Assembly: GCA_964036045.1 (NCBI GenBank)
Contig: OZ038384.1
Location: 62,717,355 to 62,781,354, forward strand
Source of the DNA: Eutreptiella sp. 'Long Island Sound 2002'
Taxonomy: Eukaryota; Euglenozoa; Euglenophyceae; Eutreptiales; Eutreptiaceae
Length of the DNA: 64,000 bases
Reading direction: 5' to 3'
Positions 7,603-61,342 of the stretch are shown in pieces. The notes beneath the pieces were generated by a model, which saw only the letters and a list, made by a program, of their open reading frames with translations, did not search any database and was not told the origin of the DNA. A program made the translations under genes and the position numbers. How positions within the stretch are numbered: the stretch's first letter is position 1; every line of letters begins with the position of its first letter.

Positions 7603-8265
7603 TGTTGCCCTCCTCCGACCTCTTCAGTATGTCCATGTGCACTTCCTTCCCTCATTTTGGTGTAGTCAAGACGTCCGGAGACTCAATTGTGACTCATGTG
7701 CTCTTTGGGGATGGCCCGACGGTGGTGTCAATTCTTTCAACTCCTCCACCCCCGTTGAGACCATCCATGTCGACGGGTAGAAGTAGTATGAAATTTGGTT
7801 TTTACTTTTGCATGCATGACTCAAGTCCATAGCATGATGCCCATGCCCATGAACTCTTCGTCTCGCATTGCATGTGGTTCGACCGGAAGAGTAGGTTGAG
7901 TCGTACTCACGCTTCTGAATTCTTTTCCTTTTCTCAATGGTGGACCTACCTTGTGCTCGTTTGGACCCTCCTTGAACCCGAGCTTGTCTCGTGTGGACTA
8001 GTGGACATGTCTCCGACCCCTATTGGCTCATTTGTGAACCATTGTTGCACGGTGGCTCATTTGTGGGTTTTTGTGGACCATTGCTGAACTTTGGTTGGAT
8101 CATTGTTGGACCGTATTGGATTCCTGGGTCATTTCTTCATTGGGCTTTCAGTTGGAATTGTTTGTGTCATTGCCGTGCTCTGAGGGACGTGAGTGGGTTG
8201 TGAGCTTGGAAATCTCCGCTGGTTTTTATTGGTTGGAAGTTTGGTTGGTTGGAAATTGGGAAAAA
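7603..8265 (+). other. Leader or LTR-proximal DNA upstream of the gypsy gag
   Basis: About 660 bp without a convincing gene precedes the gag ATG at 8266. It should contain the 5' LTR end and primer-binding site of the Ty3/gypsy element. I could not identify an LTR by comparison with the DNA after 61342, nor a clear tRNA-complementary site. Confidence 0.35.
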
Positions 8266-41242: not shown

Positions 41243-41280
41243 CACCTATGATTTTAGCAGCTGTTTTTTCCCAAAATTCA
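41243..41280 (+). repeat. Terminal inverted repeat, left
   Basis: Thirty-eight bases starting CACCTATGATTTTAGCAGC. A second, imperfect block (AGAAAATCGCCAAAAAG, about 41452-41470) matches the right end after a 170-bp interruption, so the ancestral inverted repeat may have been about 70 bp. Confidence 0.85.
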
Positions 41281-41478
41281 ACGTCATGCATTTTCAGATC
41301 GGCGATATCATACTGTACACAGTAGTACTGTTGTTTTTGTGTTTTCTCAAAATTTTAACAAAAATATGCTGTCGCTGGAGCTGGAGCCGCACATCAACTG
41401 TCAACAACTGCCGCGTACGCGAGTTTCAGATTCCCGACCGCCGTGCGCAATAGAAAATCGCCAAAAAGTCCACTTTTT
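41281..41478. other. Subterminal DNA of the 18.4-kb segment
   Basis: No gene. It holds the 170-bp interruption of the left inverted repeat, with a CTGGAGCTGGAG doubling and a CG-rich patch near 41410-41450. Confidence 0.4.
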
Positions 41479-41774
41479 TTCGCAGTTGGAAGCAAAGTAA
41501 AGGCATGAGCGTGTCCCCGAGATCAATATCTTGCTGCTTACCTAAAAAAATCCAGATTGGCAGGCACAGATTTTGAGAAATTCACACTTTTCTAGCCAAA
41601 AACCACTCTGTTTCATGGTTTTAGGGTCTATGGAGGCCATGTAGAGGGCCTTACAGGGATGGAAGAGGTGGTATAGAGGTGCTATATGAACAAATTGTCA
41701 TCACCATTGGTAGAAGCCTACATGACAAGCGATGTTTTGCCTTTATTCTAGGCTATTCATCCCTTTCTCATGCA

Positions 41775-43020
41775 CCATGGGGCCGAATATCCATATGGTT
41801 CATGGGTAGGGTTTTGATCACCTATCACCGTCCACACACATGTTTGGGGCTTGGGTTGGTATTGTATGCATTTGAATGATAACAACTACATAAAATATGA
41901 TACTATGTGCATAAGAATGGGATGAACAATGAACATTTGAGGTGTTTTTGGCCCTATTTTGCACCGTTTGTGGTCCATTTCCATATGGTTCATAGGTAGG
42001 CTTTTGCGTGCCTATCACCGTACACACACATGTTTGGGGCTTAGGTTGTTATTGTAAGCATTTGTATGATAGGTGCTACATATAATATGATAGTATGTGC
42101 ATAAGAATGGGATGAACGATGAACATTTGAGGTGTTTTTGGCCCTATTTTGCACCGTTTGTGGTCCAATATCCATATGGTTCATAGGTAGGGTTTTGATC
42201 ACCTATCACCGTCCACACACATGTTTGGGGCTTGGGTTGGTATTGTATGCATTTGAATGATAATAACTACATAAAATATGATAGTATGTGCATAAGAATG
42301 GGATGAACGATGAACATTTGAGGTGTTTTTGGCCCTATTTTGCACCGTTTTGTAGTCCATTTCCATATGGTTCATAGGTGGGTTTTTGCGTGCCTATCAC
42401 CGTACACACACATGTTTGGGGCTTAGGTTGTTATTGTAAGCATTTGTATGATAGGTGCTACATATAATATGATAGTATGTGCATAAGAATGGGATGAACG
42501 ATGAAGATTTGAGGTGTTTTTGGCCCTATTTTGCACCGTTTGTGGTCCAATATCCATATGGTTCATAGGTAGGGTTTTGATCACCTATCACCGTCCACAC
42601 ACATGTTTGGGGCTTGGGTTGGTATTGTATGCATTTGAATGATAAGAACTACATAAACTATGATACTACGGGCATAAGAATGGGATGAACGATGTAGATT
42701 TGAGGTGTTTTTGGCCCGTTTTTGCACCTTTTGCGCTCCATATCCATATGGTTCATAGGTAGGGTTTTGATCACCTATCACCGTCCACACACATGTTTGG
42801 GGCATAGGATGGTATTGTAAGCATTTGAATGCTGGGTAAGAAATAAAATATGATACTACGGGCACAAGCATGGGATGAACAATGTAGTTTTGAGGTGTTT
42901 TTGGCCCGTTTTTGCACCATTTGTGCTCCATATCCATATGGTTCATAGGTAGGGTTTTGATCACCTATCACCGTCCACACACATGTTTGGGGCATAAGAT
43001 GGTATCATAAGTATTTGAAT
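41775..43020. repeat. Satellite family 1, about 190-bp units (copy 1)
   Basis: TCCATATGGTTCA recurs at about 41789, 41981, 42171, 42362, 42551, 42740 and 42931, steps of 189-192 bp. Each unit also has CACCTATCACCGT, ACACACATGTTTGGGGC and TTTGAGGTGTTTTTGGCCC. Two subtypes partly alternate (TAGGGTTTTGATCACC and TAGGCTTTTGCGTGCC). A lone unit lies at 58960-59125. Translations of this array are not genes. Confidence 0.95.
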
Positions 43021-43059
43021 GCTAGGTAATTATTACAAAAAATGTGTTCATGCACGGGT

Positions 43060-43132
43060 TTTCTCTGGGAAAACCGTGTACGTGCACGGTTTTTTGGCCC
43101 TCCCTCCCTCCCTCCCTCCCTCTCTCTCTCTT

Positions 43133-43194
<62 letters not shown>

Positions 43195-43307
43195 CGGATG
43201 TGCACAATACTTAAGGAATGTACCTCCCAAGTTCTGCCCCAAAAAAATTCCCTTATGTCGAAAACCGTGTACGTACACGGTTTTCTCAGAAAAAACCCGT
43301 GTAAGTA
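43060..43307. repeat. Palindrome cluster and CT microsatellite (copy 1)
   Basis: Perfect or near-perfect palindromes of ACCGTGTACGTACACGGT type occur at about 43072-43092 and 43263-43282, with a degenerate one at 43297-43307. More lie beyond the insertion (about 44516-44538 and 44561). A CCCT/CT tract fills about 43095-43191. Such palindromes can extrude as cruciforms. The apparent Arg/Glu and Ser/Leu ORFs are translations of the CT tract. Confidence 0.9.
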
Positions 43308-43538
43308 CCACCCCCCCCCCCCTAATTGACCCCCCCCCGGAAGGCCCAAACCCCCAGGGGGGTCAATTATGGGGGGGGGTCAATTAGGGGGGGGGTCAAA
43401 TCCTCACCCCGACCGCTGACCCTACATGGGGCCCCAATGGGCGAGCCACGTACAATAGTGCAAAACACTGGTTTGAATCAATTGCGGTACAAATAGTAAG
43501 GTGAAGTCCACAAGCAACATAAGGATTGGATGCAGGTC

Positions 43539-43907
43539 CTAGCAGAAAGGACATTTGCCAGTGGAAGTGCGAGACATGCAACCGGGATGGAGCCACACTT
43601 TGCAATTACTACATTGCTCAGCGGAGCGACGCAACAAGCGGTCACATTTCAAACAAATGAGAGGTCGTGGCTCCGCCTCTGGCTCAGGCTCTGGCTCTTG
43701 ATCGGGTTCCATTTCATCTGGTGTCTCCTCATTCCCTTCCTCTTCATCACCATCTTCACCTTCGTCACCTTCGTTATCATCTTCCCTAACATTCATGTTT
43801 TGAAGCACTTGAAGTGCTGCATTCTCTGCGGCAACAACCTCCACAGCGGGAGGAACAACAGGAGGGGTCATAGGGTCAGGAGCAGCACCTTGTAAATTCG
43901 TTTCCAC
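43539..43907 (-). CDS. Acidic protein with C-terminal C4HC3 zinc finger
   Basis: A 122-codon frame from ATG 43907, overlapping the upstream frame by about 40 nt in -1 register. A Pro/Ala/Val-rich start is followed by a strongly acidic run (Glu/Asp, about residues 40-77). The Cys/His cluster is CX2C, ten residues, CX2C, X4, H, X2, C, eight residues, CX2C. This is the C4HC3 order of PHD or RING-variant fingers with short loops. It is probably the C-terminus of the same transposase after loss of the catalytic core. Confidence 0.55.
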   Translation of the reverse strand: METNLQGAAPDPMTPPVVPPAVEVVAAENAALQVLQNMNVREDDNEGDEGEDGDEEEGNEETPDEMEPDQEPEPEPEAEPRPLICLKCDRLLRRSAEQCSNCKVWLHPGCMSRTSTGKCPFC

Positions 43908-44407
43908 CTTTTGAAGAAAAGGTTACGTTGTTCTGGTCTGACAGTCAAAAAGTCCTTTTGCACTTCTTTTGGCTGTGAACCAACCCACTCTTCCAAAAGA
44001 GAACGGCCAACGGCACCATTTGCTTCTCGGATTGCAATAAAGAAGTCATACATAGCAGATCCCAAGGCGGCATATTTTCGAAAATCCTTCTTGCGCTTCA
44101 TTTTGCCAAAGCCTTGATGAACCATGGCCCGGATGGACTTTTCTTGCCTCTTCATTCTTTTCAAAGTAGACTCTGATACTTCTGGGTACTTGGCCAAGGT
44201 CTCCTTCATGGTGTGCTTGTTGAGGTAGTTCAAAATCTCAGCCCGTTTGTAGTTATCTAAATCTCTACGTCCTTTAGGCCCCACATCCTCCACTAACTCT
44301 TCACCTTTGCTGGGTTGAGGAATAGATCCCGAAATAATGGCAGCACCCACATTGGGATTTTCAGGTAGCACAGCCCGTGGGCCAAAGGCGAGAATGCCCT
44401 GTCTCAT
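43868..44407 (-). CDS. Pogo-like transposase N-terminal DNA-binding protein, 179 aa
   Basis: Begins ATG at 44407. Residues about 52-90 (YKRAEILNYL to STLKRMKR) look like a Psq-type helix-turn-helix. Residues about 105-170 (FRKYAALGSAMYDFFIAI, SLLEEWV, FFKRWKRIYK) resemble the CENP-B-type second helix-turn-helix. In pogo-type transposases these two modules bind the inverted repeats. The frame ends soon after the second module. The -1 frame then continues in coding-like sequence (LQKVETNLQGAAPD), so a -1 shift, by mutation or recoding, may join it to the downstream frame. Confidence 0.55.
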   Translation of the reverse strand: MRQGILAFGPRAVLPENPNVGAAIISGSIPQPSKGEELVEDVGPKGRRDLDNYKRAEILNYLNKHTMKETLAKYPEVSESTLKRMKRQEKSIRAMVHQGFGKMKRKKDFRKYAALGSAMYDFFIAIREANGAVGRSLLEEWVGSQPKEVQKDFLTVRPEQRNLFFKRWKRIYKVLLLTL

Positions 44408-44689
44408 AGCAAAACCCTATGTGACACAGGGGAGTTGGGAAATCCCAAGGGGGTCAATTAGGGGGGGGGGTCAATTAGGGGGGGGGGGGGTGGTACACGG
44501 TTTTTTGGGTCCAGAAAACCGGTGCACGTACACGGTTTTTTTCTATAAAAATTTCCCTCCCTACACGGTTTTAAATGAAATATGATACTATGTGCACAGG
44601 AGTGGGTTGAACAATGTAGATTTGAGGTGTTTTCGGCCCATTTTTGCACCTTTTGTGGTCCATATCCACGGTGGACAAGTATTGCAAAT

Positions 44690-45030
44690 TTCTTGTCATA
44701 CCTGACGTTGTTCCACACCACATATAATCATATACAAAGATTGTCTCACTGCCTTCATGCCATTGTTGCGTGCTTTGTGTGCCAAGAAGAGGTATTTCCT
44801 GTGTATTACGCCTTCCGAGGTAGGGTGAGCGAAGGGTGAAAAGACGGTGATCGAACATGACATTGCTCCACACCACATATTCTAATATACAAAGATTGTC
44901 TCACTGCCTTCATGCCCTTGTTGCGTGCTTTTTGTGCCAAGAGGAGGCTTGTCCTGTGTATTACGCCTTCCTAGGTAGGGTGAGCAAAGGGTGAAAAGAC
45001 AGTGAACTAAGGGTGAACGAATGGTCAAAA
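44690..45030. repeat. Two-copy tandem repeat, period about 170 bp (copy 1)
   Basis: TCCACACCACATAT...TACGCCTTCC occurs at about 44710 and again at about 44869. The duplicate pair is at about 51437-51777 in copy 2. No gene. Confidence 0.8.
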
Positions 45031-46055
45031 GACAGTGAGGGAATAGTGAATGGCGAGCATGCATGGCAACCAAATGTGATTTCCCTTTGGTACAACCCAC
45101 AGGGCTAAGCAATGGCTCCTATGCTGACGTAGATGAGGCAGTTTGAGAACATTGCCTGGCTTTGTGTTTGCGCTGCCATTGCTTCATTGCCCACATCGCA
45201 CTCATATCATGTTTGTGACCTAACGAGGTATGGGGGAAATTTCATCCGGTTTCAAATTGGATGGTTGCCCATGTCATGTGTCTCGTTATGGGCAGATGAA
45301 ATATCACACACACAACACACACCACACGCACTCAGTGGAATGTACCAATGTGCATTGCAACGCGCGTTGCATGGCAACCCAAAGAGCCGGCTTAGGCAAT
45401 GTCCTAGAAACACTTGGTGGCAACAATCTCCCAAACAGCTGTATTTGCACTTTTGAACCCACAATGGTTGATTTCATTGCTGTCGCTGTGCTTTCGTGTG
45501 ATTTGGCATTGATGAAATTTTTCCCTAGAGCTCGGTTAGGCTTGCCAAGCAACAAATTGTGACCCTACATGCCTTTTACTCAAGATAATCTTCCGGAGGG
45601 TGCAAAAAGTGCCCCTGAATAGCCATATTTGCACTTTTGAAGCCACAAATGTGGATTAGAGTGATTTCGTTGTGATTTCGTCGTGATTACCAACCTGAGT
45701 GATTTGTGGAACCCAACAAGATAACTCCATGCATGCACACACATTTGCATTTGCATATTGATGGTATGTTGGGTGAATTGTATGGGAATGCTTAAATTCG
45801 ACCCAGTGGTGGAGGACAGAAGCAACCGTTAGGGAGCTTGTGGGTCCATGCTTGAAATATCATAGTTGAAATATCGCAGAGGAAATATCACAGTTGTGTC
45901 GGTCATTTTTTGCCCGCCTGTCCCATCTCTCCATTCAAGTGGTGGTTTGGCTTGCCGTTGTGGTGGTTGATAATTCTGCTGCGGTTGCAATCCATGATGC
46001 ATGATGCATGATGCTCCACTTCTCTTCTCAAAGCAATGTTGTCTATCCCGCAAAT
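45031..46055. other. Non-coding DNA of the duplicated unit
   Basis: No convincing gene. A TTTGCACTTTTGAA block recurs near 45443 and 45628, about 185 bp apart. Weak ORFs of up to 110 codons lack recognisable features. The same DNA is at 51778-52802. Confidence 0.4.
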
Positions 46056-46058
46056 TGG

Positions 46059-46175
46059 CGGTACTCTTCCAGTGTTGGCAAGGGAGCAACTGTGCATGTG
46101 GCTGCTGTGTTGGAGTTCCTGAGCAATGAGATGTTGGAGCTTGCGGCCAACGCATCAAGAGAAAACAAGAAGTAG
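46059..46175 (+). pseudogene. Histone H2A fragment (copy 1)
   Basis: About 38 codons match the H2A histone-fold core: [10 protein letters not shown], then [20 protein letters not shown], then RENKK, where H2A has RY-x-RVG-x-GA, AAVLEYL-x-x-E, LELAGNA and DNKK. A TAG (46173-46175) follows NKK where H2A continues with TRI-PRH; after it the frame still reads CITPRLL. Upstream and downstream H2A sequence is missing. It looks like a captured exon or retro-fragment carried by the repeat unit, not a working histone gene. Confidence 0.7.
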
Positions 46176-46609
46176 CAATGTATCACGCCTCGGCTCTTGA
46201 TGGTATGCACTGTGTGCCCCGTGCACATCCCATGTTGCACGCACGCACCAACTGTGCACACTGCGCGCACGCATTGTGCACACTGCATGCACGCACGCAT
46301 GCACAATATCAGTGTGTCACAATATTAGTGCCTTCTGTCTGCTGAGAGTTTCAGCGAAAATCTCTGGGTCTGGGTGACAGAACACCTTCGCTGTTTGTCC
46401 GTTCCCGACTCAGATTATGTCTTTTTGACACTGTGGAGCTTTTGCTCGTGCCTTTGGCATTGCGTTTTGCACTGTGCACACTGCACGCACACATTGTGCA
46501 CGCTGCACGCACGCGGCAGAGGTGGGGCATGCATGCGTTGTGCGTGCCCTGTGCATGCTTTGTGCATGTTGGGGGGGCTTCGGGGCACAGGGCGGGTGTG
46601 TATCCAAGC

Positions 46610-46740
46610 ATTCCGAAATGATGCCATGAACGACGCCAGCCAAGTGGCCCTTCACGACCTTGAAATGGAGAGAGATGGGAAAGGGTTTTAGGGATGGGTT
46701 AAGGAAGCCAAAACCTTCCTCGAGTACACGAAGTATGCAC
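46610..46740 (+). pseudogene. Exon-like fragment, unknown gene (copy 1)
   Basis: Between two minisatellite patches a plus frame reads AFRNDAMNDASQVALHDLEM, then after one stop (TAG near 46689) GWVKEAKTFLEYTKY. Composition is normal and AG precedes the start. I do not recognise the family. Duplicated near 53357-53487. Confidence 0.35.
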
Positions 46741-47090
46741 GCACGCACGGTGCACACTGCACGCACGCATTGTGCACACTGCGCGCATCTTATTCTCTTG
46801 GCCATCGCCTCTTAACCCATTTTTTTTTGTGGGGTGGACTCGATGCAAGGCATGCTGGAACGGCGCGTTCCGGACTGCAGATGCAGCAAATTCTGCGATC
46901 GCTTTGCGATAAATAGGGTGCCACGTGGGGGCGAAGACACTCGTTCAAGTCATCCTCCAAAAACTGACCCACTGTGAGCACTCCTGCCCGAATGAGCGCT
47001 GGCGCAAAAGGAAAATTGAAGTCTGTTCATTGCGAAAGGCGGCATTGTGACAGACACGCTGATGAGCTTTGCATCCCCTTCTGTGCATCA

Positions 47091-47219
47091 CACAGGGCCA
47101 GTCGCCGATACATGTTGCCGTCGGTTCATATGCCGCCGTTGAGGCGTTGAGGCCGGATGACGCCTTGGTATTGAGGATGCAAGAGGCCTTGGCGGCATTC
47201 CTCCCCCTCCTGTTCAAGG
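47091..47219 (+). pseudogene. Exon-like fragment, unknown gene (copy 1)
   Basis: A plus open stretch reads GQSPIHVAVGSYAAVEALRP and on to AFLPLLFK. It is preceded by CACACAG and followed by GTGCCG, so it could be an internal exon. Family not recognised. Duplicated at 53838-53966. A minus frame nearby (46981-46790) has an LIRAGVLTVGQFLED-like stretch seen in LINE polyproteins, but it is too short to call. Confidence 0.35.
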
Positions 47220-47324
47220 TGCCGCGTGTCCAAGATACAACATGTGCATGTACCGCATTATTTTGGGACCTGGCTACAAGGGTACTGTTTCATGGGAATC
47301 AGTAACATCAAGAATGTGCTGAAG

Positions 47325-47904
47325 CTGCATTTGACGCTCTCTGGATTGCAATCCTTGGATTCATGACACTGGTGCTGCTGGCAGACACAGAGAGGGAGCC
47401 CCTGCTGGAGCACGTTGAGTGGGGCACCCTCTTGTTCTTTGCAGCACTCTTTGTGCTCATGCACGGTCTCGAAAAGCTTGGGCTCATTGAGTGGATTGGA
47501 AATGTTGTGGTTACGATCATTGAAGCGGTACGTTGTTGCATTGTGCATTGGTTATCAAGGCAGTAGGAATACGTAATGCCACCGCATGCAGGGATTCCAT
47601 TTCATGCGAAAAAGTTGCATGGCCGCAACACGTGACAGAATACAGTGATCAGTCTGTGGGTCTCACTGTTTTTTGAATTTTGTTTTGTGCAAGCAGGAAT
47701 CCAGTTTCTGCCACCCTCGGTACCTACCCCCTGTGATGCGCGGTCGCTGGCATGGCGGTAAGTGAGTCCCTCACTGCCTCTCACAACACATTCCAACTTT
47801 TCATCCCTAGGAAAAGCGATGGCGGCAGTGGTTGCTATCATGGCAACCATTATGACAGCTTTTTTGATATTTGGGCAAATGGTTACGGCAGCGTCGATTG
47901 CAGG
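47325..47904 (+). pseudogene. P-protein/OCA2-like (CitMHS-type) transporter fragment, three exons (copy 1)
   Basis: Exon 1 (47325-47527) encodes WIAILGFMTLVLLAD, then EHVEWGTLLFFAALFVLM and LGLIEWIGN, strongly like the ion-transporter domain of OCA2/P proteins. It ends at GCG before GTACGT. Exon 2 (47697-47757) follows a T-rich tract and GCAAGCAG and ends before GTAAGTGAG. Exon 3 (47811-47904) follows TCATCCCTAG and encodes a membrane segment (GKAMAAVVAIMATIMTAFL). Exons join in frame (phases 0 and 1). Such proteins are polytopic anion or proton-coupled transporters of internal membranes. Only about 120 residues remain of a family usually over 400 long, so this is a captured gene piece with its introns. 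Confidence 0.65.
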
Positions 47905-48340
47905 GTGGCGTTAACGCAACCAAATGGGGGATGGGGGCTTGATGAAAATGTTTGTAGTGTGCACGCACGCACTGTGCACGCTGCACGCCCGCATTGTGCA
48001 AACTGCACGCACGCACTGTGCACGCTGCACGCCCGCATTGTGCAAACTGGACGCACGCACTGTGCACACTGCACGCCGGCACTGTGCACACGGCACGCAC
48101 GCATTGTGCAAACTGCACGCATGCACTGTGCACGCTGCACGCACGCATTGTGCACGCTGCACGCACGCATTGTACACACTGCACGCACTCATCGTCGCCC
48201 GCATTGTGCACACTGCACGCACACACTGTGAACATTTGCACTGTGCGCATGCAAGCATTCCGCACACTTCACACACGCACTGTGAACATGCGCACTGTGC
48301 ACACCGTACGCATGCACTGTGCACACTGCACTGTCTTTGG
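47905..48340. repeat. 22-bp minisatellite (copy 1)
   Basis: Units of GTGCACNCTGCACGCACGCATT type are repeated about 14 times between 47953 and 48340, with shorter patches at about 46245-46300, 46470-46515 and 46735-46790. Cys/His/Ala/Thr-rich ORFs on both strands here are translations of the repeat. CA/TG alternation and inner GTGCAC palindromes could favour Z-DNA or hairpins. Confidence 0.9.
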
Positions 48341-48344
48341 GCAG

Positions 48345-48545
48345 GACCTCTGTATTTACTGATTTTTGTTGGCCATACCTGGGAACATTCTCTATGGGGC
48401 ATCCGTTCTGGCCTACTCCATGGAGGCCTCCTGGATCTGAAAACAAATCCCACTTCTATTGGGGAGCATGGAGACCGTGGTCTTTAATTTAATTCTGGTG
48501 TTTCAGATCATCTTGTTTGGCAAGCCGTCGAGCAAACCTCTGCTA
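48345..48545 (+). pseudogene. PQ-loop transporter fragment (copy 1)
   Basis: After CTTTGGGCAG a frame reads LCIY, TGA, FLLAIPGNILYGASVLAYSM, then WI, TGA (48438-48440), KQIPLLLGSMETVVFNLILV and FQIILFG. The spacing GN-x-x-Y-x-x-S followed by P-x-LLGS-x-x-T-x-x-F matches the second PQ-loop and last helices of lysosomal or vacuolar amino-acid exporters (PQLC2/Ypq-type). Two in-frame TGA codons mark it as a pseudogene piece. The open DNA after it (frame from 48550, 122 codons) continues in unknown coding-like sequence. Confidence 0.6.
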
Positions 48546-48549
48546 GCCA

Positions 48550-48842
48550 GTGCATACAGTCCAATGCAGTATGAGTATTGGCCTTGGGTGCAGGAATGCT
48601 GTGCTCCTTGGAGGAGGGAGGGACCCCATGGGGCAAATGCATTACTCAGTGCAGGCACTGCTCAGTGCACAATTTGGCCCAGAATTTCATGCTCAAGTTG
48701 TTGCTCTTTCCAAATGTCCTCAAATGATCAGTCAACATGTGCGGACCATGGTGCACACAGGGATGGATGCAGGTTCTGTATTTCTCAAGGTGGTCCCCTT
48801 CTCCACAAGGAAGACGTCTTGGGCATCATTTGTTGCGTTTGA
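48550..48842 (+). pseudogene. Unknown ORF fragment after the PQ-loop piece (copy 1)
   Basis: A plus frame of mixed composition (for example QALLSAQFGPEFHAQVVALS and VFLKVVPFSTRKTSWASFVAF) runs from 48550 to a C tract near 48860. No family recognised. It could be another captured fragment. Duplicate at 55297-55589. Confidence 0.35.
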
Positions 48843-48934
48843 AAAAAAGATTATCCAAAGCCCCCCCCCCATATTTCAGGCTGTACCATGGGTCCAAAAT
48901 GTTGCCTTTGCCCCCTGAACAACAGGTCAGGGAC

Positions 48935-49411
48935 CCCCCTCCCCTATTTTGAGGGTGCTGGATGCGAAAAAACAGATTGTAGGGACACACAGATCGTGAC
49001 TCACACAATTTGCAACATCCGTATGCACCAAAATCTGCCGTTTTTCCATGATAAAACGGCCAAAAATGGCCGTTTTTCGGTCAAAAATTGAGTTTGTTGG
49101 CCTCAGACAAGCAGTTGAAGACCCCCCCCTATTTTGAGGGTGCTGGATGTGAAAAAGCAAGTTGTAGTCACACACAGGTCACGCAAACACAATTTACAGC
49201 ATCCGTATGCACCAAAATTTGCCATTTTTCATGAAAAAAACGGCCAACAATGGCCATTTTTTGGTCAAAAGTTGGGATTTTTGGGCTCTCCCCTATTTTG
49301 AGGGCGCTGGATGCGAAAAAGCAGATTGTAGGGACACACAGATCACGCAAACACAATTTACAGCATCCGTACGCACCAAAATATGCCATTTTTCATGAAA
49401 ACCGGCGAAAG
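48935..49411. repeat. Satellite family 2, three units (copy 1)
   Basis: Units start CCCCCTATTTTGAGGGTGCTGGATG at about 48945, 49130 and 49292. Each has ACACACAGATC, CAGCATCCGTATGCACCAAAA and a hairpin of AAACGGCC with GGCCGTTT type. The array is cut at 49411 by the start of duplication copy 2. Confidence 0.9.
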
Positions 49412-49707
49412 TTCGCAGTTGGAAGCAAAGTAAAGGCATGAGCGTGTCCCCGAGATCAATATCTTGCTGCTTACCTAAAAAAATCCAGATTGGCAGGCAC
49501 AGATTTTGAGAAATTCACACTTTTCTAGCCAAAAACCACTCTGTTTCATGGTTTTAGGGTCTATGGAGGCCATGTAGAGGGCCTTACAGGGATGGAAGAG
49601 GTGGTATAGAGGTGCTATATGAACAAATTGTCATCACCATTGGTAGAAGCCTACATGACAAGCGATGTTTTGCCTTTATTCTAGGCTATTCATCCCTTTC
49701 TCATGCA

Positions 49708-50953
49708 CCATGGGGCCGAATATCCATATGGTTCATGGGTAGGGTTTTGATCACCTATCACCGTCCACACACATGTTTGGGGCTTGGGTTGGTATTGTAT
49801 GCATTTGAATGATAACAACTACATAAAATATGATACTATGTGCATAAGAATGGGATGAACAATGAACATTTGAGGTGTTTTTGGCCCTATTTTGCACCGT
49901 TTGTGGTCCATTTCCATATGGTTCATAGGTAGGCTTTTGCGTGCCTATCACCGTACACACACATGTTTGGGGCTTAGGTTGTTATTGTAAGCATTTGTAT
50001 GATAGGTGCTACATATAATATGATAGTATGTGCATAAGAATGGGATGAACGATGAACATTTGAGGTGTTTTTGGCCCTATTTTGCACCGTTTGTGGTCCA
50101 ATATCCATATGGTTCATAGGTAGGGTTTTGATCACCTATCACCGTCCACACACATGTTTGGGGCTTGGGTTGGTATTGTATGCATTTGAATGATAATAAC
50201 TACATAAAATATGATAGTATGTGCATAAGAATGGGATGAACGATGAACATTTGAGGTGTTTTTGGCCCTATTTTGCACCGTTTTGTAGTCCATTTCCATA
50301 TGGTTCATAGGTGGGTTTTTGCGTGCCTATCACCGTACACACACATGTTTGGGGCTTAGGTTGTTATTGTAAGCATTTGTATGATAGGTGCTACATATAA
50401 TATGATAGTATGTGCATAAGAATGGGATGAACGATGAAGATTTGAGGTGTTTTTGGCCCTATTTTGCACCGTTTGTGGTCCAATATCCATATGGTTCATA
50501 GGTAGGGTTTTGATCACCTATCACCGTCCACACACATGTTTGGGGCTTGGGTTGGTATTGTATGCATTTGAATGATAAGAACTACATAAACTATGATACT
50601 ACGGGCATAAGAATGGGATGAACGATGTAGATTTGAGGTGTTTTTGGCCCGTTTTTGCACCTTTTGCGCTCCATATCCATATGGTTCATAGGTAGGGTTT
50701 TGATCACCTATCACCGTCCACACACATGTTTGGGGCATAGGATGGTATTGTAAGCATTTGAATGCTGGGTAAGAAATAAAATATGATACTACGGGCACAA
50801 GCATGGGATGAACAATGTAGTTTTGAGGTGTTTTTGGCCCGTTTTTGCACCATTTGTGCTCCATATCCATATGGTTCATAGGTAGGGTTTTGATCACCTA
50901 TCACCGTCCACACACATGTTTGGGGCATAAGATGGTATCATAAGTATTTGAAT
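49708..50953. repeat. Satellite family 1 (copy 2)
   Basis: The duplicate of 41775-43020, with the same seven units in the same order. Confidence 0.95.
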
Positions 50954-50992
50954 GCTAGGTAATTATTACAAAAAATGTGTTCATGCACGGGT

Positions 50993-51065
50993 TTTCTCTG
51001 GGAAAACCGTGTACGTGCACGGTTTTTTGGCCCTCCCTCCCTCCCTCCCTCCCTCTCTCTCTCTT

Positions 51066-51129
<64 letters not shown>

Positions 51130-51325
51130 CGGATGTGCACAATACTTAAGGAATGTACCTCCCAAGTTCTGCCCCAAAAAAATTCCCTTATGTCGAAAAC
51201 CGTGTACGTACACGGTTTTCTCAGAAAAAACCCGTGTAAGTACACGGTTTTTTGGGTCCAGAAAACCGGTGCACGTACACGGTTTTTTTCTATAAAAATT
51301 TCCCTCCCTACACGGTTTTAAATGA
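50993..51325. repeat. Palindrome cluster and CT microsatellite (copy 2)
   Basis: Same array without interruption; the CT tract is 2 nt longer than in copy 1. The intact sequence around 51235-51245 (GTGTAAGTACACGG) is the empty target of the transposon found in copy 1. Confidence 0.9.
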
Positions 51326-52805
51326 AATATGATACTATGTGCACAGGAGTGGGTTGAACAATGTAGATTTGAGGTGTTTTCGGCCCATTTTTGCACCTTT
51401 TGTGGTCCATATCCACGGTGGACAAGTATTGCAAATTTCTTGTCATACCTGACGTTGTTCCACACCACATATAATCATATACAAAGATTGTCTCACTGCC
51501 TTCATGCCATTGTTGCGTGCTTTGTGTGCCAAGAAGAGGTATTTCCTGTGTATTACGCCTTCCGAGGTAGGGTGAGCGAAGGGTGAAAAGACGGTGATCG
51601 AACATGACATTGCTCCACACCACATATTCTAATATACAAAGATTGTCTCACTGCCTTCATGCCCTTGTTGCGTGCTTTTTGTGCCAAGAGGAGGCTTGTC
51701 CTGTGTATTACGCCTTCCTAGGTAGGGTGAGCAAAGGGTGAAAAGACAGTGAACTAAGGGTGAACGAATGGTCAAAAGACAGTGAGGGAATAGTGAATGG
51801 CGAGCATGCATGGCAACCAAATGTGATTTCCCTTTGGTACAACCCACAGGGCTAAGCAATGGCTCCTATGCTGACGTAGATGAGGCAGTTTGAGAACATT
51901 GCCTGGCTTTGTGTTTGCGCTGCCATTGCTTCATTGCCCACATCGCACTCATATCATGTTTGTGACCTAACGAGGTATGGGGGAAATTTCATCCGGTTTC
52001 AAATTGGATGGTTGCCCATGTCATGTGTCTCGTTATGGGCAGATGAAATATCACACACACAACACACACCACACGCACTCAGTGGAATGTACCAATGTGC
52101 ATTGCAACGCGCGTTGCATGGCAACCCAAAGAGCCGGCTTAGGCAATGTCCTAGAAACACTTGGTGGCAACAATCTCCCAAACAGCTGTATTTGCACTTT
52201 TGAACCCACAATGGTTGATTTCATTGCTGTCGCTGTGCTTTCGTGTGATTTGGCATTGATGAAATTTTTCCCTAGAGCTCGGTTAGGCTTGCCAAGCAAC
52301 AAATTGTGACCCTACATGCCTTTTACTCAAGATAATCTTCCGGAGGGTGCAAAAAGTGCCCCTGAATAGCCATATTTGCACTTTTGAAGCCACAAATGTG
52401 GATTAGAGTGATTTCGTTGTGATTTCGTCGTGATTACCAACCTGAGTGATTTGTGGAACCCAACAAGATAACTCCATGCATGCACACACATTTGCATTTG
52501 CATATTGATGGTATGTTGGGTGAATTGTATGGGAATGCTTAAATTCGACCCAGTGGTGGAGGACAGAAGCAACCGTTAGGGAGCTTGTGGGTCCATGCTT
52601 GAAATATCATAGTTGAAATATCGCAGAGGAAATATCACAGTTGTGTCGGTCATTTTTTGCCCGCCTGTCCCATCTCTCCATTCAAGTGGTGGTTTGGCTT
52701 GCCGTTGTGGTGGTTGATAATTCTGCTGCGGTTGCAATCCATGATGCATGATGCATGATGCTCCACTTCTCTTCTCAAAGCAATGTTGTCTATCCCGCAA
52801 ATTGG

Positions 52806-52922
52806 CGGTACTCTTCCAGTGTTGGCAAGGGAGCAACTGTGCATGTGGCTGCTGTGTTGGAGTTCCTGAGCAATGAGATGTTGGAGCTTGCGGCCAACGC
52901 ATCAAGAGAAAACAAGAAGTAG
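52806..52922 (+). pseudogene. Histone H2A fragment (copy 2)
   Basis: Identical position and sequence in the second copy of the duplication; same terminal stop. Confidence 0.7.
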
Positions 52923-54071
52923 CAATGTATCACGCCTCGGCTCTTGATGGTATGCACTGTGTGCCCCGTGCACATCCCATGTTGCACGCACGCACCAACT
53001 GTGCACACTGCGCGCACGCATTGTGCACACTGCATGCACGCACGCATGCACAATATCAGTGTGTCACAATATTAGTGCCTTCTGTCTGCTAAGAGTTTCA
53101 GCGAAAATCTCTGGGTCTGGGTGACAGAACACCTTCGCTGTTTGTCCGTTCCCGACTCAGATTATGTCTTTTTGACACTGTGGAGCTTTTGCTCGTGCCT
53201 TTGGCATTGCGTTTTGCACTGTGCACACTGCACGCACACATTGTGCACGCTGCACGCACGCGGCAGAGGTGGGGCATGCATGCGTTGTGCGTGCCCTGTG
53301 CATGCTTTGTGCATGTTGGGGGGGCTTCGGGGCACAGGGCGGGTGTGTATCCAAGCATTCCGAAATGATGCCATGAACGACGCCAGCCAAGTGGCCCTTC
53401 ACGACCTTGAAATGGAGAGAGATGGGAAAGGGTTTTAGGGATGGGTTAAGGAAGCCAAAACCTTCCTCGAGTACACGAAGTATGCACGCACGCACGGTGC
53501 ACACTGCACGCACGCATTGTGCACACTGCGCGCATCTTATTCTCTTGGCCATCGCCTCTTAACCCATTTTTTTTTGTGGGGTGGACTCGATGCAAGGCAT
53601 GCTGGAACGGCGCGTTCCGGACTGCAGATGCAGCAAATTCTGCGATCGCTTTGCGATAAATAGGGTGCCACGTGGGGGCGAAGACACTCGTTCAAGTCAT
53701 CCTCCAAAAACTGACCCACTGTGAGCACTCCTGCCCGAATGAGCGCTGGCGCAAAAGGAAAATTGAAGTCTGTTCATTGCGAAAGGCGGCATTGTGACAG
53801 ACACGCTGATGAGCTTTGCATCCCCTTCTGTGCATCACACAGGGCCAGTCGCCGATACATGTTGCCGTCGGTTCATATGCCGCCGTTGAGGCGTTGAGGC
53901 CGGATGACGCCTTGGTATTGAGGATGCAAGAGGCCTTGGCGGCGTTCCTCCCCCTCCTGTTCAAGGTGCCGCGTGTCCAAGATACAACATGTGCATGTAC
54001 CGCATTATTTTGGGACCTGGCTACAAGGGTACTGCTTCATGGGAATCAGTAACATCAAGAATGTGCTGAAG

Positions 54072-54651
54072 CTGCATTTGACGCTCTCTGGATTGCAATC
54101 CTTGGATTCATGACACTGGTGCTGCTGGCAGACACAGAGAGGGAGCCCCTGCTGGAGCACGTTGAGTGGGGCACCCTCTTGTTCTTTGCAGCACTCTTTG
54201 TGCTCATGCACGGTCTCGAAAAGCTTGGGCTCATTGAGTGGATTGGAAATGTTGTGGTTACGATCATTGAAGCGGTACGTTGTTGCATTGTGCATTGGTT
54301 ATCAAGGCAGTAGGAATACGTAATGCCACCGCATGCAGGGATTCCATTTCATGCGAAAAAGTTGCATGGCCGCAACACATGACAGAATACAGTGATCAGT
54401 CTGTGGGTCTCACTGTTTTTTGAATTTTGTTTTGTGCAAGCAGGAATCCAGTTTCTGCCACCCTCGGTACCTACCCCCTGTGATGCGCGGTCGCTGGCAT
54501 GGCGGTAAGTGAGTCCCTCACCGCCTCTCACAACACATTCCAATTTTTCATCCCTAGGAAAAGCGATGGCGGCAGTGGTTGCTATCATGGCAACCATTAT
54601 GACAGCTTTTTTGATATTTGGGCAAATGGTTACGGCAGCGTCGATTGCAGG
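54072..54651 (+). pseudogene. P-protein/OCA2-like transporter fragment (copy 2)
   Basis: Same three exons in the second duplication copy. Differences seen lie upstream (TACTGCTTCATGG) or in introns (CACATGAC, TCACCGCC, CAATTTTTC); the coding parts look identical by eye. Confidence 0.65.
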
Positions 54652-55087
54652 GTGGCGTTAACGCAACCAAATGGGGGATGGGGGCTTGATGAAAATGTTT
54701 GTAGTGTGCACGCACGCACTGTGCACGCTGCACGCCCGCATTGTGCAAACTGCACGCACGCACTGTGCACGCTGCACGCCCGCATTGTGCAAACTGGACG
54801 CACGCACTGTGCACACTGCACGCCGGCACTGTGCACACGGCACGCACGCATTGTGCAAACTGCACGCATGCACTGTGCACGCTGCACGCACGCATTGTGC
54901 ACGCTGCACGCACGCATTGTACACACTGCACGCACTCATCGTCGCCCGCATTGTGCACACTGCACGCACACACTGTGAACATTTGCACTGTGCGCATGCA
55001 AGCATTCCGCACACTTCACACACGCACTGTGAACATGCGCACTGTGCACACCGTACGCATGCACTGTGCACACTGCACTGTCTTTGG
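54652..55087. repeat. 22-bp minisatellite (copy 2)
   Basis: Second copy of the 47905-48340 array with the same unit order. Confidence 0.9.
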
Positions 55088-55091
55088 GCAG

Positions 55092-55292
55092 GACCTCTGT
55101 ATTTACTGATTTTTGTTGGCCATACCTGGGAACATTCTCTATGGGGCATCCGTTCTGGCCTACTCCATGGAGGCCTCCTGGATCTGAAAACAAATCCCAC
55201 TTCTATTGGGGAGCATGGAGACCGTGGTCTTTAATTTAATTCTGGTGTTTCAGATCATCTTGTTTGGCAAGCCGTCGAGCAAACCTCTGCTA
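55092..55292 (+). pseudogene. PQ-loop transporter fragment (copy 2)
   Basis: Duplicate of 48345-48545 with the same two stops. Confidence 0.6.
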
Positions 55293-55679
55293 GCCAGTGC
55301 ATACAGTCCAATGCAGTATGAGTATTGGCCTTGGGTGCAGGAATGCTGTGCTCCTTGGAGGAGGGAGGGACCCCATGGGGCAAATGCATTACTCAGTGCA
55401 GGCACTGCTCAGTGCACAATTTGGCCCAGAATTTCATGCTCAAGTTGTTGCTCTTTCCAAATGTCCTCAAATGATCAGTCAACATGTGCGGACCATGGTG
55501 CACACAGGGATGGATGCAGGTTCTGTATTTCTCAAGGTGGTCCCCTTCTCCACAAGGAAGACGTCTTGGGCATCATTTGTTGCGTTTGAAAAAAAGATTA
55601 TCCAAAGCCCCCCCCCCCCATATTTCAGGCTGTACCATGGGTCCAAAATGTTGCCTTTGCCCCCTGAACAACAGGTCAG

Positions 55680-58600
55680 GGACCCCCCTCCCCTATTTTG
55701 AGGGTGCTGGATGCGAAAAAACAGATTGTAGGGACACACAGATCGTGACTCACACAATTTGCAACATCCGTTTGCACCAAAATCTGCCGTTTTTCCATGA
55801 AAAAACGGCCAAAAATGGCCGTTTTTCGGTCAAAAATTGAGTTTGTTGGCCTCAGACAAGCAGTTGAAGACCCCCCCCCTATTTTGAGGGTGCTGGATGT
55901 GAAAAAGCAAGTTGTAGTCACACACAGGTCACGCAAACACAATTTACAGCATCCGTATGCACCAAAATTTGCCATTTTTCATGAAAAAAACGGCCAACAA
56001 TGGCCATTTTTTGGTCAAAAGTTGGGATTTTTGGGCTCTCCCCTATTTTGAGGGCGCTGGATGCGAAAAAGCAGATTGTAGGGACACACAGATCACGCAA
56101 ACACAATTTACAGCATCCGTACGCACCAAAATATGCCATTTTTCATGAAAACCGGCGAAAAATGGCCTTTTTTTTGTCAAATATTGATTTTTTGGCTTTG
56201 TACAAGCAGTTGAAGGACCCCCCCCCCCCTATTTTGAGGGTGCTGGATGCAAAAAAGCAAGTTGTGGTCACAGAAAGATCACGACAACACATTTTGTAGC
56301 ATCCGTATGCACCACAATTTGCCGTTTCTCATGGAAAAAACGGCTAAAAATGGCCATTTCTTGGTCAAAAAATGATTTTTTTTGGCCTCAGACAAGCGGT
56401 TGAAGACTGCCCCCCTATTTTGAGGGTGCTGGATGCGAAAAAGCAGATTGTAGGGACACACAGAACACGCAAACACAATTTACAGCATCCGTATGCACCA
56501 AAATTTGCCATTTTTCATGAAAAAACGGCCAACAATGGCCATTTTTTGGTCAAAAGTTGGGATTTTTGGGATCTCCCCTATTTTGAGGGCGCTGGATGCG
56601 AAAAAGCAGATTGTAGGGACACACAGATCACGCAAACACAATTTACAGCATCCGTACGCACCAAAATATGCCATTTTTCATGAAAACCGGCGAAAAATGG
56701 CCTTTGTTTTGTCAAATATTGATTTTTTGGTCTTGTACAAGCAGTTGAAGGACCCCCCCCCCCCCTATTTTGAGGGTGCTGGATGCAAAAAAGCAAGTTG
56801 TGGTCACACAAAGATCACGAAAACACATTTTGTAGCATCCGTATGCACCACAATTTGCCGTTTCTCATGGAAAAAACGGCTAAAAATGGCCATTTCTTGG
56901 TCAAAAAATGATTTTTTTTTTGGCCTCAGACAAGCGGTTGAAGACTGCCCCCCTATTTTGAGGGTGCTGGATGCGAAAAAGCAGATTGTAGGGACACACA
57001 GATCACGCAAACACAATTAACAGCATCCGTATGCACCAAAATATGCCATTTTTCATGAAAACCGGCCAACAATGGCCATTTTTTGGTCAAAAGTTGGGAT
57101 TTTTGGGCTCTCCCCTATTTTGAGGGCGCTGGATGCGAAAAAGCAGATTGTAGGGACACACAGATCACGCAAACACAATTTACAGCTTCCGTACGCACCA
57201 AAATATGCCATTTTTCATGAAAACCGGCCAAAAATGGCTCCTTTTTTGTCAAATATTGATTTTTTGGCTTTGTACAAGCAGTTGAAGGACCCCCCCCCCC
57301 TATTTTGAGGGTGCTGGATGCGAAAAAGCAGATTGTAGGGACACACAGAACACGCAAACACAATTTACAGCATCCGTATGCACCAAAATTTGCCATTTTT
57401 CATGAAAAAACGGCCAACAATGGCCATTTTTTGGTCAAAAGTTGGGATTTTTGGGCTCTCCCCTATTTTGAGGGCGCTGGATGCGAAAAAGCAGATTGTA
57501 GGGACACACAGATCACGCAAACACAATTTACAGCATCCGTACGCACCAAAATATGCCATTTTTCATGAAAACCGGCGAAAAATGGCCTTTTTTGTCAAAT
57601 ATTGATTTTTTGGCTTTGTACAAGCAGTTGAAGGACCCCCCCCCCCCCTATTTTGAGGGTGCTGGATGCAAAAAAGCAAGTTGTGGTCACACAAAGATCA
57701 CGAAAACACATTTTGTAGCATCCGTATGCACCACAATTTGCCGTTTCTCATGGAAAAAACGGCTAAAAATGGCCATTTCTTGGTCAAAAAATGATTTTTT
57801 TTTGGCCTCAGACAAGCGGTTGAAGACTGCCCCCCTATTTTGAGGGTGCTGGATGCGAAAAAGCAGATTGTAGGGACACACAGATCACGCAAACACAATT
57901 TACAGCATCCGTATGCACCAAAATTTGCCATTTTTCATGAAAAAAACGGCCAACAATGGCCATTTTTTGGTCAAAAGTTGGGATTTTTGGGCTCTCCCCT
58001 ATTTTGAGGGCGCTGGATGCGAAAAAGCAGATTGTAGGGACACACAGATCACGCAAACACAATTGACAGCATCCTTACGCACCAAAATATGCCATTTTTC
58101 ATGAAAAGCGGCCAAAAATGGCCGTTTTTTGGCCAAATATTGATTTTTTGGCTTTGCACAAGCAGTTGAAGGACCCCCCCCCCCTAATTTGAGGGTGCTG
58201 AATGGAAAAAAGCAAGTTCTGGTCACACAAAGTTCACGACAACACATTTTGTAGCATCCACAATTTGCCATTTCTCATGGAAAAAACGGCTAAAAATGGC
58301 CATTTTTTGGTCAAAAAATTGTTCTTTTTGGCCTCATACAAGCGGTTGAAGACTGCCCCCATATTTTGAGGGTGCTGGATACGAAAAAGCGGATTGTGGG
58401 GGCACACAGATCACGCAAACACAATTTACAGCATCCGTACGCACCAAAATTTGCCAAAAAAAACGGCCACAAATGGCCCTTTTCTGGTCACATATTGATT
58501 TTTTTTGGCTTCGTACAAGCAGTTGAAGGATTCCCCCCCCTATTTTGAGGGTGCTAGATGCAAAAAAGCAAGTTGTATGCACACACGGACTACGAAAGCA

Positions 58601-58940
58601 CAATCTACAGCATCTGTATGCACCAAAATTTGCTATTTTTCATGGAAAAACTGCCAAAAATGGCCGTGTCTTGGTCAAAAATTGAGTATTTTGGCCTCAG
58701 ACAGGCAGTTGCAAAGCCCCCCCCCCATTTTCAGGGTGCTGGATGCAAAAAAGCATGCTGTGTGGGCACACCGATTGCCCAAACACAATTTACAGCATTC
58801 TTATGCCCCAAAATCTGCCATTTTTCAACAAAATCGGCGAAAAATAGCCATTTTTTTATCAAAAATTGTTTGTTTTTTTTAGCCTGAAACAAGCAGCTGA
58901 ACCACCCCCCCTCCCGGTTGGAGGGTGCTCGTTGCAAAAA
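55680..58940. repeat. Satellite family 2 main array, about 18 units, higher-order pattern
   Basis: TATTTTGAGGG(T/C)GCTGG starts recur at about 55692, 55879, 56043, 56230, 56415, 56577, 56766, 56955, 57115, 57300, 57468, 57649, 57836, 58006, 58188, 58364, 58540, then degenerate. Steps cycle roughly short (160-170), long (181-189), long (185-189). Short units carry GGGCTCTCCCC before the next unit. This suggests a three-unit higher-order repeat of about 535 bp. Array edges (58190 on) are more diverged than the middle. No genes. Confidence 0.9.
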
Positions 58941-59140
58941 AGCGAAATACGCCAAAGAACTACATAAAATATGATACTATGTGCATAAGAATGGGATGAG
59001 CGATGAACATTTGAGGTGTTTTTGGCCCTATTTTGCACCGTTGGTGGTCCATTTCCATATGGTTCATAGGTAGGCTTTTGCGTGCCTATCACCGTACACA
59101 CACATGTTTGAGGCTTAGGTTGTTATTTTTGGGGTACAAT
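58941..59140. repeat. Isolated satellite family 1 unit
   Basis: ACATAAAATATGATACTATG...CACACACATGTTTG matches family 1 units of the TAGGCTTTTGCG subtype, showing that family 1 flanks family 2 on both sides. Confidence 0.85.
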
Positions 59141-59650
59141 GGGGTAGGAGGAACCCCCCCCCCTGCTATTTGGGGGGTGTATAATTAAAACAAAAGGTTA
59201 CTTTTGGTCTTTTGGGGCACAAAACCTATTTTCATGGTTTTTTCGTGCCTATACTATACTATACAGGTACACTGGTGTGCAGCACTGTTCTGCTGCACCA
59301 CCCCAGAGCAGACAAAAATACTCCAAAATAGGCCGAATTCCAGGGTTTTTGATGGTTTGGGAGAAAGCTCGGGTGGGAGGAACCCCCCCATCCCTATTTT
59401 GGGGCCAGAGAATCCAAAGAAAATTGGAATTTCTGTCGAAAATCCTCTATAGGCAGGTACACTGGTGTGCAGCACTGTTTTGCGGGACCAGCCCAGAGCA
59501 GGCAAAAATACCCCAAAATAGGCCAAATTTCAGGGTTTTTGATATTTTTGGACAAAATTTGGGTAGGAGGACCCCCCCCCCCTATTTTGGGGGCCGTAGA
59601 AACCAAAAAAAATAGGTCATTTCTCGCGAAAAACCCCTTTTTGGTGATTT
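59141..59650. repeat. Satellite family 3, about 188-bp units
   Basis: CAGGTACACTGGTGTGCAGCACTG occurs at 59266 and 59454 (188 bp apart), each followed by an AAAATA-CCAAAATAGG block and a C-rich TAGGAGGA(C/A)CCCCCC stretch with TATTTTGGGG. The last feature is shared with family 2, so the two may be related. Confidence 0.8.
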
Positions 59651-59652
59651 TC

Positions 59653-59690
59653 TGAATTTTGGGAAAAAACAGCTGCTAAAATCATAGGTG
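59653..59690 (-). repeat. Terminal inverted repeat, right
   Basis: Exact reverse complement of 41243-41280. The inner continuation (about 59622-59652) matches the left end imperfectly beyond the 170-bp interruption there. Confidence 0.85.
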
Positions 59691-61342
59691 AAGGGATGTG
59701 CAGCTAATTGGTACACTGAGACTATTTCCGGATATGCAGCCCATCTTCAAGCTCGGATGAGTCATTTGTCATATTGGCCTGAGTCGGAAGGACTCATCAG
59801 TGCCGTGTCCAAGGTGGACATACCACCTCAGTCCAAAGACCTCTATGAAGATTTGACCGAGCATTATCGGGATGAGTTTCCTGACTGGGACTTCGAGTCT
59901 CATCCAGTCATTTCCGACCCGAATTTTTGGGATTGCGGTATGAGGTGGGACGATGACGAAAAAAAGATTCGGTTCAAGGGAAATATTGTGTGCCCTACAG
60001 CTCTTTTTGAAGACGTGGTGGTGGCAATACATTCTTATGGCCACCCTCGGGTGGAGAAGACTGTGGAGTTGTTTGATAGTAAATTTTGGTGCCTTGCCTA
60101 CGACTTGCCAAGAGGTAGGCGTAATCTGTCACCGGACATTGCTAAAATTCTTGGGCGATGTCATGAGTGTCAAACTACGAAGGCAAGGCGTGGCAAGCAA
60201 CCCGACACATGTGAATTTCCTCCTTCTCCGCAGTATCCTTTCACATCCCTTGCAATTGACTTTTGTAAATTGCCCGAGTGTTTGCAGAAGAACACTGGAA
60301 AAAAGGTGGACTATCTCATGGTCATCGTCTGTCGTCCAACCGGGTATGTATTATCAATGCCTTGTCAAGAAAAGGGATTGGACGGTAAGAATGCTGCTTC
60401 TCTGTTTTTGGATGGATGCGTCCATATGTTTGGGTTACCAAAAGAGTTCATTTGTGACAATGTGTCCATTATCAACTGTGAATGTTTGAGGGATTCGTTT
60501 GCCATGAGTGGAGTTGAACAACACAGCTCGGTGGCTAACGACCACAGAGCAACGGACGTGCTGAACGAGCTGTCCAAAGTATTGTAAACTCATTTAGGCA
60601 GTATCTTGAGCAGCGTGGGGGGTCCAGCAAGCACTTCTGGGTGGAAAGCTTGCCATTGGCCCTTTGGGCTTTGAACGATTTGCCGGGGACAGTCAGTGGG
60701 TATTCCCCACATCGACTTGCTTTTGGGAGAGATCATGTAGGCTGGAGGGATTGTTTCCCCGTATCCCTACAGGATGGCGCTGAAGATGCACGACAATGTT
60801 TTGGTCGCATGATGGACGAACGTCCTGAAGTGCGGGAGCGCCTTGAAGACCTCCGGGCCAAGGAGTTTGCCACATTTTTGGCCTAATATCTGGAGCAATC
60901 GTTCAAGCCGGGGGACCGTGTATGGGTACGTAATCGTATTGTAGAACGTCCTGTTCATTGCAAGCTTGAAAGGGTTTGGCAAGGCCCTTGTGAAGTATTT
61001 AGACGCATTTCACCCGGCACCTACCGTGTGAATATCCAAGGTAGGGAAGAGATCTTCACCTCTCAGCGATTGAAGCCCTATGTCCCTGACAAGGATGACA
61101 ACAAAGTGCCTTTCCACTATTATACAGATAGGGAAGGGTTGAATGAGACCAACAACTACGTGGTCGAGCGTTCTTTGGAGGATCGTGTTGTCAGGGGCAA
61201 GCGACAGTGGCGAGTCAAATTTGGGGGGTTCCCCGAACCAGAGTGGCATTATGCAGGCTCTTTCATGCATAATATCAACGATACATGGGCTCGGTACAAC
61301 CGTCAGAAAAGGATCGATTTGTCTTTGTCAGATTTTCGCTGA
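59691..61342 (+). pseudogene. pol: Gypsy integrase and C-terminal domain
   Basis: Coding resumes at the right inverted-repeat edge. A zinc-binding HHCC region has HSYGHPRVEKT and CHECQTTKAR. The core has Asp in LAIDFCKLP (near 60257), Asp in FICDNVS (near 60456) and Glu in VLNELSKVL (near 60568). The D-E spacing is 36 residues, one more than the usual 35. A frameshift near 60585 moves to the frame with LALWALNDLPGTVSG, then TAA 60884-60886, then GDRVWVRN and VWQGPCEVFRRI, and a C-terminal segment (VVERSLEDRVVRGKRQWRVK, GFPEPEWH) resembling a chromodomain. Integrase inserts cDNA; a chromodomain would guide it to modified chromatin. Confidence 0.85.

Follow-up and report, generated by a model that had tools for sequence, protein, structure and literature searches.

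The 64,000-nucleotide window analysed here (contig OZ038384.1, positions 62,717,355 to 62,781,354) comes from the euglenophyte Eutreptiella sp. 'Long Island Sound 2002' and contains, inside a Ty3/gypsy retroelement, an 18,448-bp segment (Table 1). This segment is very probably a non-autonomous, satellite-bearing copy of a high-copy DNA transposon family with terminal inverted repeats (TIRs), moved by a RAG1/CMCT-type DDE transposase with a one-base stagger. Shared ends, paired copies, one-base duplications and coding relatives that are largely stop-free and lie at the expected distance from an end were all observed; cut-and-paste transposition by a DDE enzyme with a one-nucleotide stagger, with window-type copies mobilised in trans, would be the corresponding mechanism. 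The original prediction had stressed the size of a combined satellite and gene-capture carrier. The 18.4 kb is real, yet it is largely a tandem duplication, and what is unusual is a different pair of features: a target duplication of one base and a RAG1-like, still unclassified transposase.

The element reads CACCTATG...CATAGGTG at its termini, of the form CAC...GTG, and its two arms are fully complementary, as the perfect 38-bp inverted repeats of the original prediction require. Its placement within a gypsy pol gene was likewise borne out by Pfam, with a reverse transcriptase (RVT_1, 39343-39930, E = 7.2e-8) and an RNase H (RT_RNaseH_2, 40031-40750, E = 1.6e-22) on one side and an integrase on the other, and the insertion site was intact in six uninterrupted gypsy copies. 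Further paired copies of the end had been proposed as the check on this reading, and their absence as the point that would overturn it. In the organism's own assembly (2.28 Gb in 2205 contigs), the exact 37-base end occurred 820 times (409+411) and its reversed control 0 times. Among the 100 end places listed, all on the sequence labelled C1, 22 facing pairs were less than 20 kb apart (898 to 12,687 bp) and no pair in another orientation was, while random placement of 100 ends gave a mean of 0.26 facing pairs and at most 3; chance is therefore excluded for these ends, and the refuting outcome named in the original prediction is decisively contradicted. Two wider facing pairs on C1 spanned 24.9 and 37.7 kb.

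Probes from the two ends, 158 bp on the left and 131 bp on the right, gave 40 scored places each (of 838 and 919 candidates, respectively), and twelve complete copies including that of the window, from 1.06 to 18.4 kb, had the same beginning and end. Ten of the twelve lacked any frame of at least 200 aa, and the other two carried one of 205 or 227 aa, located where the window copy has its 22-bp satellite. The window copy and copies on C9, C7 and C5 were 100% identical over their first 540 bp at four loci, which indicates a subfamily that moved recently. As the other three members of this subfamily measured 10.7, 10.7 and 8.1 kb, the size of the window copy is mainly its own enlargement. Overall, 15 complete elements taken whole were bounded by the same TIRs, and empty sites showed a 1-bp target-site duplication; the repeated paired ends support the prediction of a non-autonomous TIR element that holds a piece of a gene and in which satellites expand.

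The filled site of the window (TGTAA-element-AAGGG) differed from the empty site TGTAAAGGG, found in 6/6 gypsy copies, by a single added A. Exactly one base was added in all four insertions for which clean empty sites were available, the other three being chance finds in other fetched loci: C5_21.63 (A), C5_142.28 (G, three empty copies) and C1_175.2 (C). Comparisons of C6_3.75 with L035/L006 and of C5_21.63 with L006/L035 were strongly diverged, and that of C9_69.68 with L040 was noisy. The flanks were examined in 35 complete copies. Fifteen of these were the elements taken whole; the rest were 20 of the 21 remaining C1 pairs under 20 kb, the one of 12.7 kb being left out together with the two wider pairs (24.9 and 37.7 kb). 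The base before the element equalled the base after it in 31 of them, including 8 of 9 coding copies, compared with a mean of 10.2 and a maximum of 20 in 5000 rounds of shuffled right flanks. Twenty-two of these 31 matched at 1 bp only, eight also at 2 bp (runs of one base) and one also at 3 bp; among the remaining four, three matched at 2 bp only and one at 3 bp only (C1:72201963-72210863, C1:188798981-188800730, C6_3.75 [L037] and C8_36.93 [L047]), which may reflect a variable stagger or changes after insertion. A 2-bp duplication was rejected: it was matched by 11/35 copies (shuffle mean 2.75), eight of which were the one-base runs that also match at 1 bp. Matches at 3 bp (2/35) and longer were within the shuffle range, and none of the 35 copies matched at 5 bp. 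At the 31 one-base sites, pyrimidines abound to the left of the duplicated base and G or purines to its right, which makes a weak palindrome centred on that base. The target duplication, which the original prediction had left to be defined by alignment, is thus usually a single base, and this is very unusual; a literature search for 1-bp target duplications returned no transposon paper of that kind, most subscription journals being outside its coverage.

A coding relative sharing the ends, the object of one of the checks named in the original prediction, was found with 160-base probes, each cut from the mid-region of a C1 pair; 20 of the 22 pairs were used, all but the two shortest. Eleven probes matched window-type copies and nine a second, coding type, taken whole at C1:36887166-36897493 (10,328 bp), which was matched by all nine, one of them derived from this copy. 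Five of the eleven window-type probes fell in sequence common to both types; four of these fitted the window type better, and the fifth, L050, was slightly nearer the coding copy (99.4 vs 98.8%). For the 24.9- and 37.7-kb pairs, 5 of 18 probes matched the coding type. The coding copy lies in reverse orientation, its last 1.9 kb and first 0.42 kb corresponding to the left and right ends of the window element at about 92% identity. Between these shared ends, frames of 328, 291, 179, 99 and 632 aa occupy one strand, and the 291-179-99 series is a single frame that two TGA codons interrupt here. The frame has a stop-free 437-aa relative (P0122, from a cluster of 121), which scored 96 of 1442 candidate places in the same genome; 74 of the 96 had no stop in the matched stretch, and for 59 of these the frame was exactly 571 codons long (hand count). 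For seven of the nine coding-frame copies on C1, an exact end with the expected orientation lay 2.5-3.3 kb outward of the frame (0.6% for a random place); the other two had no exact end within 12 kb.

Beyond this assembly, a word-based protein search with 7998 candidates scored, which distant relatives could escape, gave 37 matches, all marked 'ena', that probably come from a single assembly, either of this genome or of a sister to it. Diverged relatives of the transposase (P0127 and P0129-P0132) were about 45-55% identical. The two further long frames of the coding element (L086; 1207-3102, 632 aa with a glutamine-rich tail, and 7204-8187, 328 aa with an acidic middle) gave no Pfam match above the cut-off and possibly encode accessory proteins.

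A motif scan of 38 proteins, many of them near-identical copies, showed the transposase-like protein to carry D-77-D, cysteines at +19 and +22, H-x4-H and a glutamate 20 residues on. The spacing from the second aspartate to the cysteines was constant in 15/15 proteins where the pattern was found, that between the aspartates in 11/11, and that from the second histidine to the glutamate in 9/9. From the second aspartate onward it equals that of the RAG1 residues D708/C727/C730/H937/H942/E962 (PMC4914335). Searches of Pfam, NCBIfam and PDB with this protein gave no match reaching the cut-off, a profile search of PDB sequences gave none, and no kelch (RAG2-like) domain was matched among the coding-element frames tested. 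Predicted structures were of low quality (pLDDT 42.2 and 44.9 for the first and second models). In VIA-align, ranks 1-18 were all RAG1, with model residues ~197-364 placed on RAG1 ~791-949, so that the sole well-modelled part aligned with the RAG1 insertion domain; Foldseek alone gave 0 matches at E ≤ 0.001.

The CMCT clade, which includes EnSpm/CACTA, Mirage, Chapaev, Transib, Plavaka, ESTA and Lanisha, is described as having C(2)C and H(3-4)H motifs, mostly CA..TG termini and duplications of 2 to 5 bp (Kojima 2025, PMC12730594). Judged by pattern and spacing, the protein appears to share the D, D, E residues with C(2)C and H(4)H between the second D and the last E, and the element is a TIR transposon with CAC...GTG termini in all 35 copies examined. 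It differs in its one-base duplication and in the lack of similarity to any Pfam model. As the residues and termini agree and the duplication length does not, the family appears to work like a CMCT/RAG1-type transposon and is filed in no named superfamily. It seems rather likely that it represents a new superfamily-level RAG1-like DDE lineage in Euglenozoa, with a single-bp strand-transfer stagger, hundreds of copies and many stop-free genes.

Among individual systems, RAG and Transib ends begin with CAC, as here. The family also has the D2-C-C and H-H-E spacing of mouse RAG1 and the insertion-domain alignment, whereas its aspartates are 77 residues apart instead of 108 and its one-base duplication contrasts with the 5 bp of RAG-like and Transib elements (PMC7204232). 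The 38-bp TIRs and the duplication set it apart from Helitrons, which have neither. Merlin transposons make 8-9 bp duplications with a different transposase. Merlin is a superfamily reported from E. gracilis, and some of its families resemble the present one in having internal tandem repeats (PMC8101967). A 24-base Euglena spliced leader matched the organism's own assembly 3,283 times (1601+1682; reversed control 0), a single marker that would suggest Euglena gracilis or a close relative as host. According to Chen 2024 (PMC11252322), one third of the repeats of Euglena lack a classification, and CACTA, CMC, Transib, RAG1 and EnSpm never occur in the main text of that paper.

The interior holds the three predicted satellite families (~191 bp, 22/44 bp and ~163/186 bp) and the predicted large tandem duplication. 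The two copies of the latter are joined with zero shared bases and, beyond their 99.8-99.9% identity, differ by a 1.18-kb nested insertion present in copy A only; the duplication is recent. The nested element belongs to a second, different CACC-ended family. Two frames lie on its minus strand, one at 43868-44416 and another at 43539-43922; the second has a C1-domain match below threshold (E = 0.002). The coding copy also bears satellites (a 190-bp array of 7.1 units and a 196-bp array of 7 units), so that satellites are neither tied to capture nor peculiar to the window type. In the C8 copy (L047), part of the transporter fragment described below and the 22-bp satellite are duplicated in place, and the C2, C10 and C14 copies show a partial repeat resembling it; internal duplication is thus recurrent in the family.

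The original prediction had also named fragments of histone H2A, of an OCA2-type transporter with introns and of a PQ-loop transporter. Of 22 element open reading frames (ORFs) submitted to Pfam (20 at E ≤ 1, 2 at E ≤ 0.1), a subset of all those in the element, none matched histone H2A or a PQ-loop domain. The transporter piece held up, as an 86-aa frame of the CitMHS / Na-sulphate symporter superfamily with chloroplast dicarboxylate transporter 1 as its top PDB match (E = 5.7e-7); its introns are putative. Sequences 94-100% identical to this piece were found at 150 places scored of 580 candidates, with a stop codon in four of the 150 (hand count), indicating that it spread with the element. 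It was likely captured from a host gene, which was not told apart among these near-identical element copies; the predicted capture of host fragments would apply to this one confirmed piece.

Table 1. Features of the element and of its insertion site (window positions).
Feature	Position	Strand	Evidence or remark
Complete non-autonomous element	41243..59690	+	18,448 bp; TIRs, 11 other complete elements with same ends, six empty sites
Left TIR, starts CACCTATG	41243..41280	+	38 nt, 100% complementary to right arm
Right TIR	59653..59690	-	38 nt, 100% complementary to left arm
Target base A before element, first copy of 1-bp duplication	41242		filled vs empty gypsy copies
Target base A after element, second copy of duplication	59691		filled vs empty gypsy copies
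Left end region with 191-bp satellite, common to coding type	41243..43027	+	alignment, 92%
Right end region, 419 bp, common to coding type	59272..59690	+	alignment, 91.7%
Tandem duplication copy A	41479..49410	+	99.8-99.9% to copy B
Tandem duplication copy B	49412..56160	+	99.8-99.9% to copy A
Satellite 1, ~191 bp x 6.5, first copy	41787..43028		repeat analysis
Satellite 1, second copy	49720..50961		repeat analysis
Satellite 2, 22/44-bp unit, first copy	47960..48230		repeat analysis
Satellite 2, second copy	54707..54977		repeat analysis
Satellite 3, ~163/186-bp unit, short copy	48937..49288		repeat analysis
Satellite 3, long array	55685..58943		repeat analysis
Nested 1.18-kb element, C-rich inverted ends	43309..44492		4-bp duplication GTAC; copy A only
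Transporter-gene fragment, CitMHS / Na-sulphate symporter superfamily, 86-aa frame	47306..47566	+	Pfam, E 8.9e-12
Transporter fragment, second copy in tandem duplication	54053..54313	+	duplication alignment
Host site upstream, Ty3/gypsy reverse transcriptase and RNase H	39343..40750	+	Pfam
Host site downstream, gypsy integrase zinc domain	59688..60587	+	Integrase_H2C2, E 3.8e-6; stop-to-stop frame begins 3 bases inside element

Elsewhere in the window, a LINE at 167-3268 (minus strand) has reverse transcriptase and endonuclease frames, with 95% relatives among the 'ena' proteins.

The emphasis of the original prediction, a Pack-type carrier of satellites whose main biology is the acquisition of host fragments, is possible but doubtful. 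Pack-type elements such as Pack-MULE and Pack-CACTA are non-autonomous TIR elements with a host-like coding piece, and the window element resembles them in this respect, in its non-coding interior and in the spread of the transporter frame over its many scored places. However, confirmation extends to a single fragment, the ORFs tested gave no H2A or PQ-loop piece, the parent gene was not located and the coding copy bears satellites too. A misassembly or one-off inverted repair event deserves hardly any credence: assembly is difficult across satellites and large tandem duplications, and an error is conceivable for the duplication unit, but not for hundreds of ends, many of them paired, with clean empty sites.

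Two other readings concern the enzyme. Plant EnSpm/CACTA elements are large and have CAC ends, internal tandem repeats, gene fragments and a CACTA terminus. The idea that this is a Pack-CACTA element, or an ordinary EnSpm/CACTA one, with a decayed 3-bp duplication (PMC12730594) draws on the CAC...GTG ends, satellite-rich interior and gene piece, and on the CMCT-type residues of the coding relatives. It is nevertheless very improbable, given the CACCT terminus, the excess of matches at 1 bp and not at 3 bp, empty sites differing by one base only, the very young age of several copies, and a transposase that matches no Pfam model. Slightly less remote, and still improbable, is movement of the ends by another recombinase (tyrosine, serine or HUH) with the coding protein as a passenger. 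DDE transposases do not typically duplicate a single base, and the coding element carries further frames, of 328 and 632 aa, without a Pfam match above the cut-off; yet the perfect TIRs, the weakly palindromic target and the RAG1-like spacing fit a DDE enzyme, and the coding-element frames put to Pfam matched no recombinase.

With a RAG1/CMCT-type DDE transposase as the preferred reading, the protein of the coding copies would recognise the common ends, excise the element and join it to weakly palindromic targets (pyrimidines-N-purines) with a one-nucleotide stagger. The window copy would have lost its transposase gene while carrying the transporter-gene piece and satellites, and would have been moved in trans into the gypsy element by an enzyme of the coding type. 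Later enlargement may have proceeded by internal tandem duplication and then nested insertion, with the satellite expansion and the tandem duplication presumably following the loss of coding sequence.

The length of a target duplication reports the distance between the transposase cuts on the two target strands, and a relative that mostly duplicates one base would offer a natural way to examine how the stagger depends on the spacing of the active sites. Because many copies are stop-free, the RAG1-type reading can be tested directly. If it is true, a protist of a deeply branching lineage would possess a RAG1-type transposase complete with the zinc-binding insertion domain, with a stagger below the 2-5 bp stated for the RAG1/Transib/CACTA group (PMC12730594).
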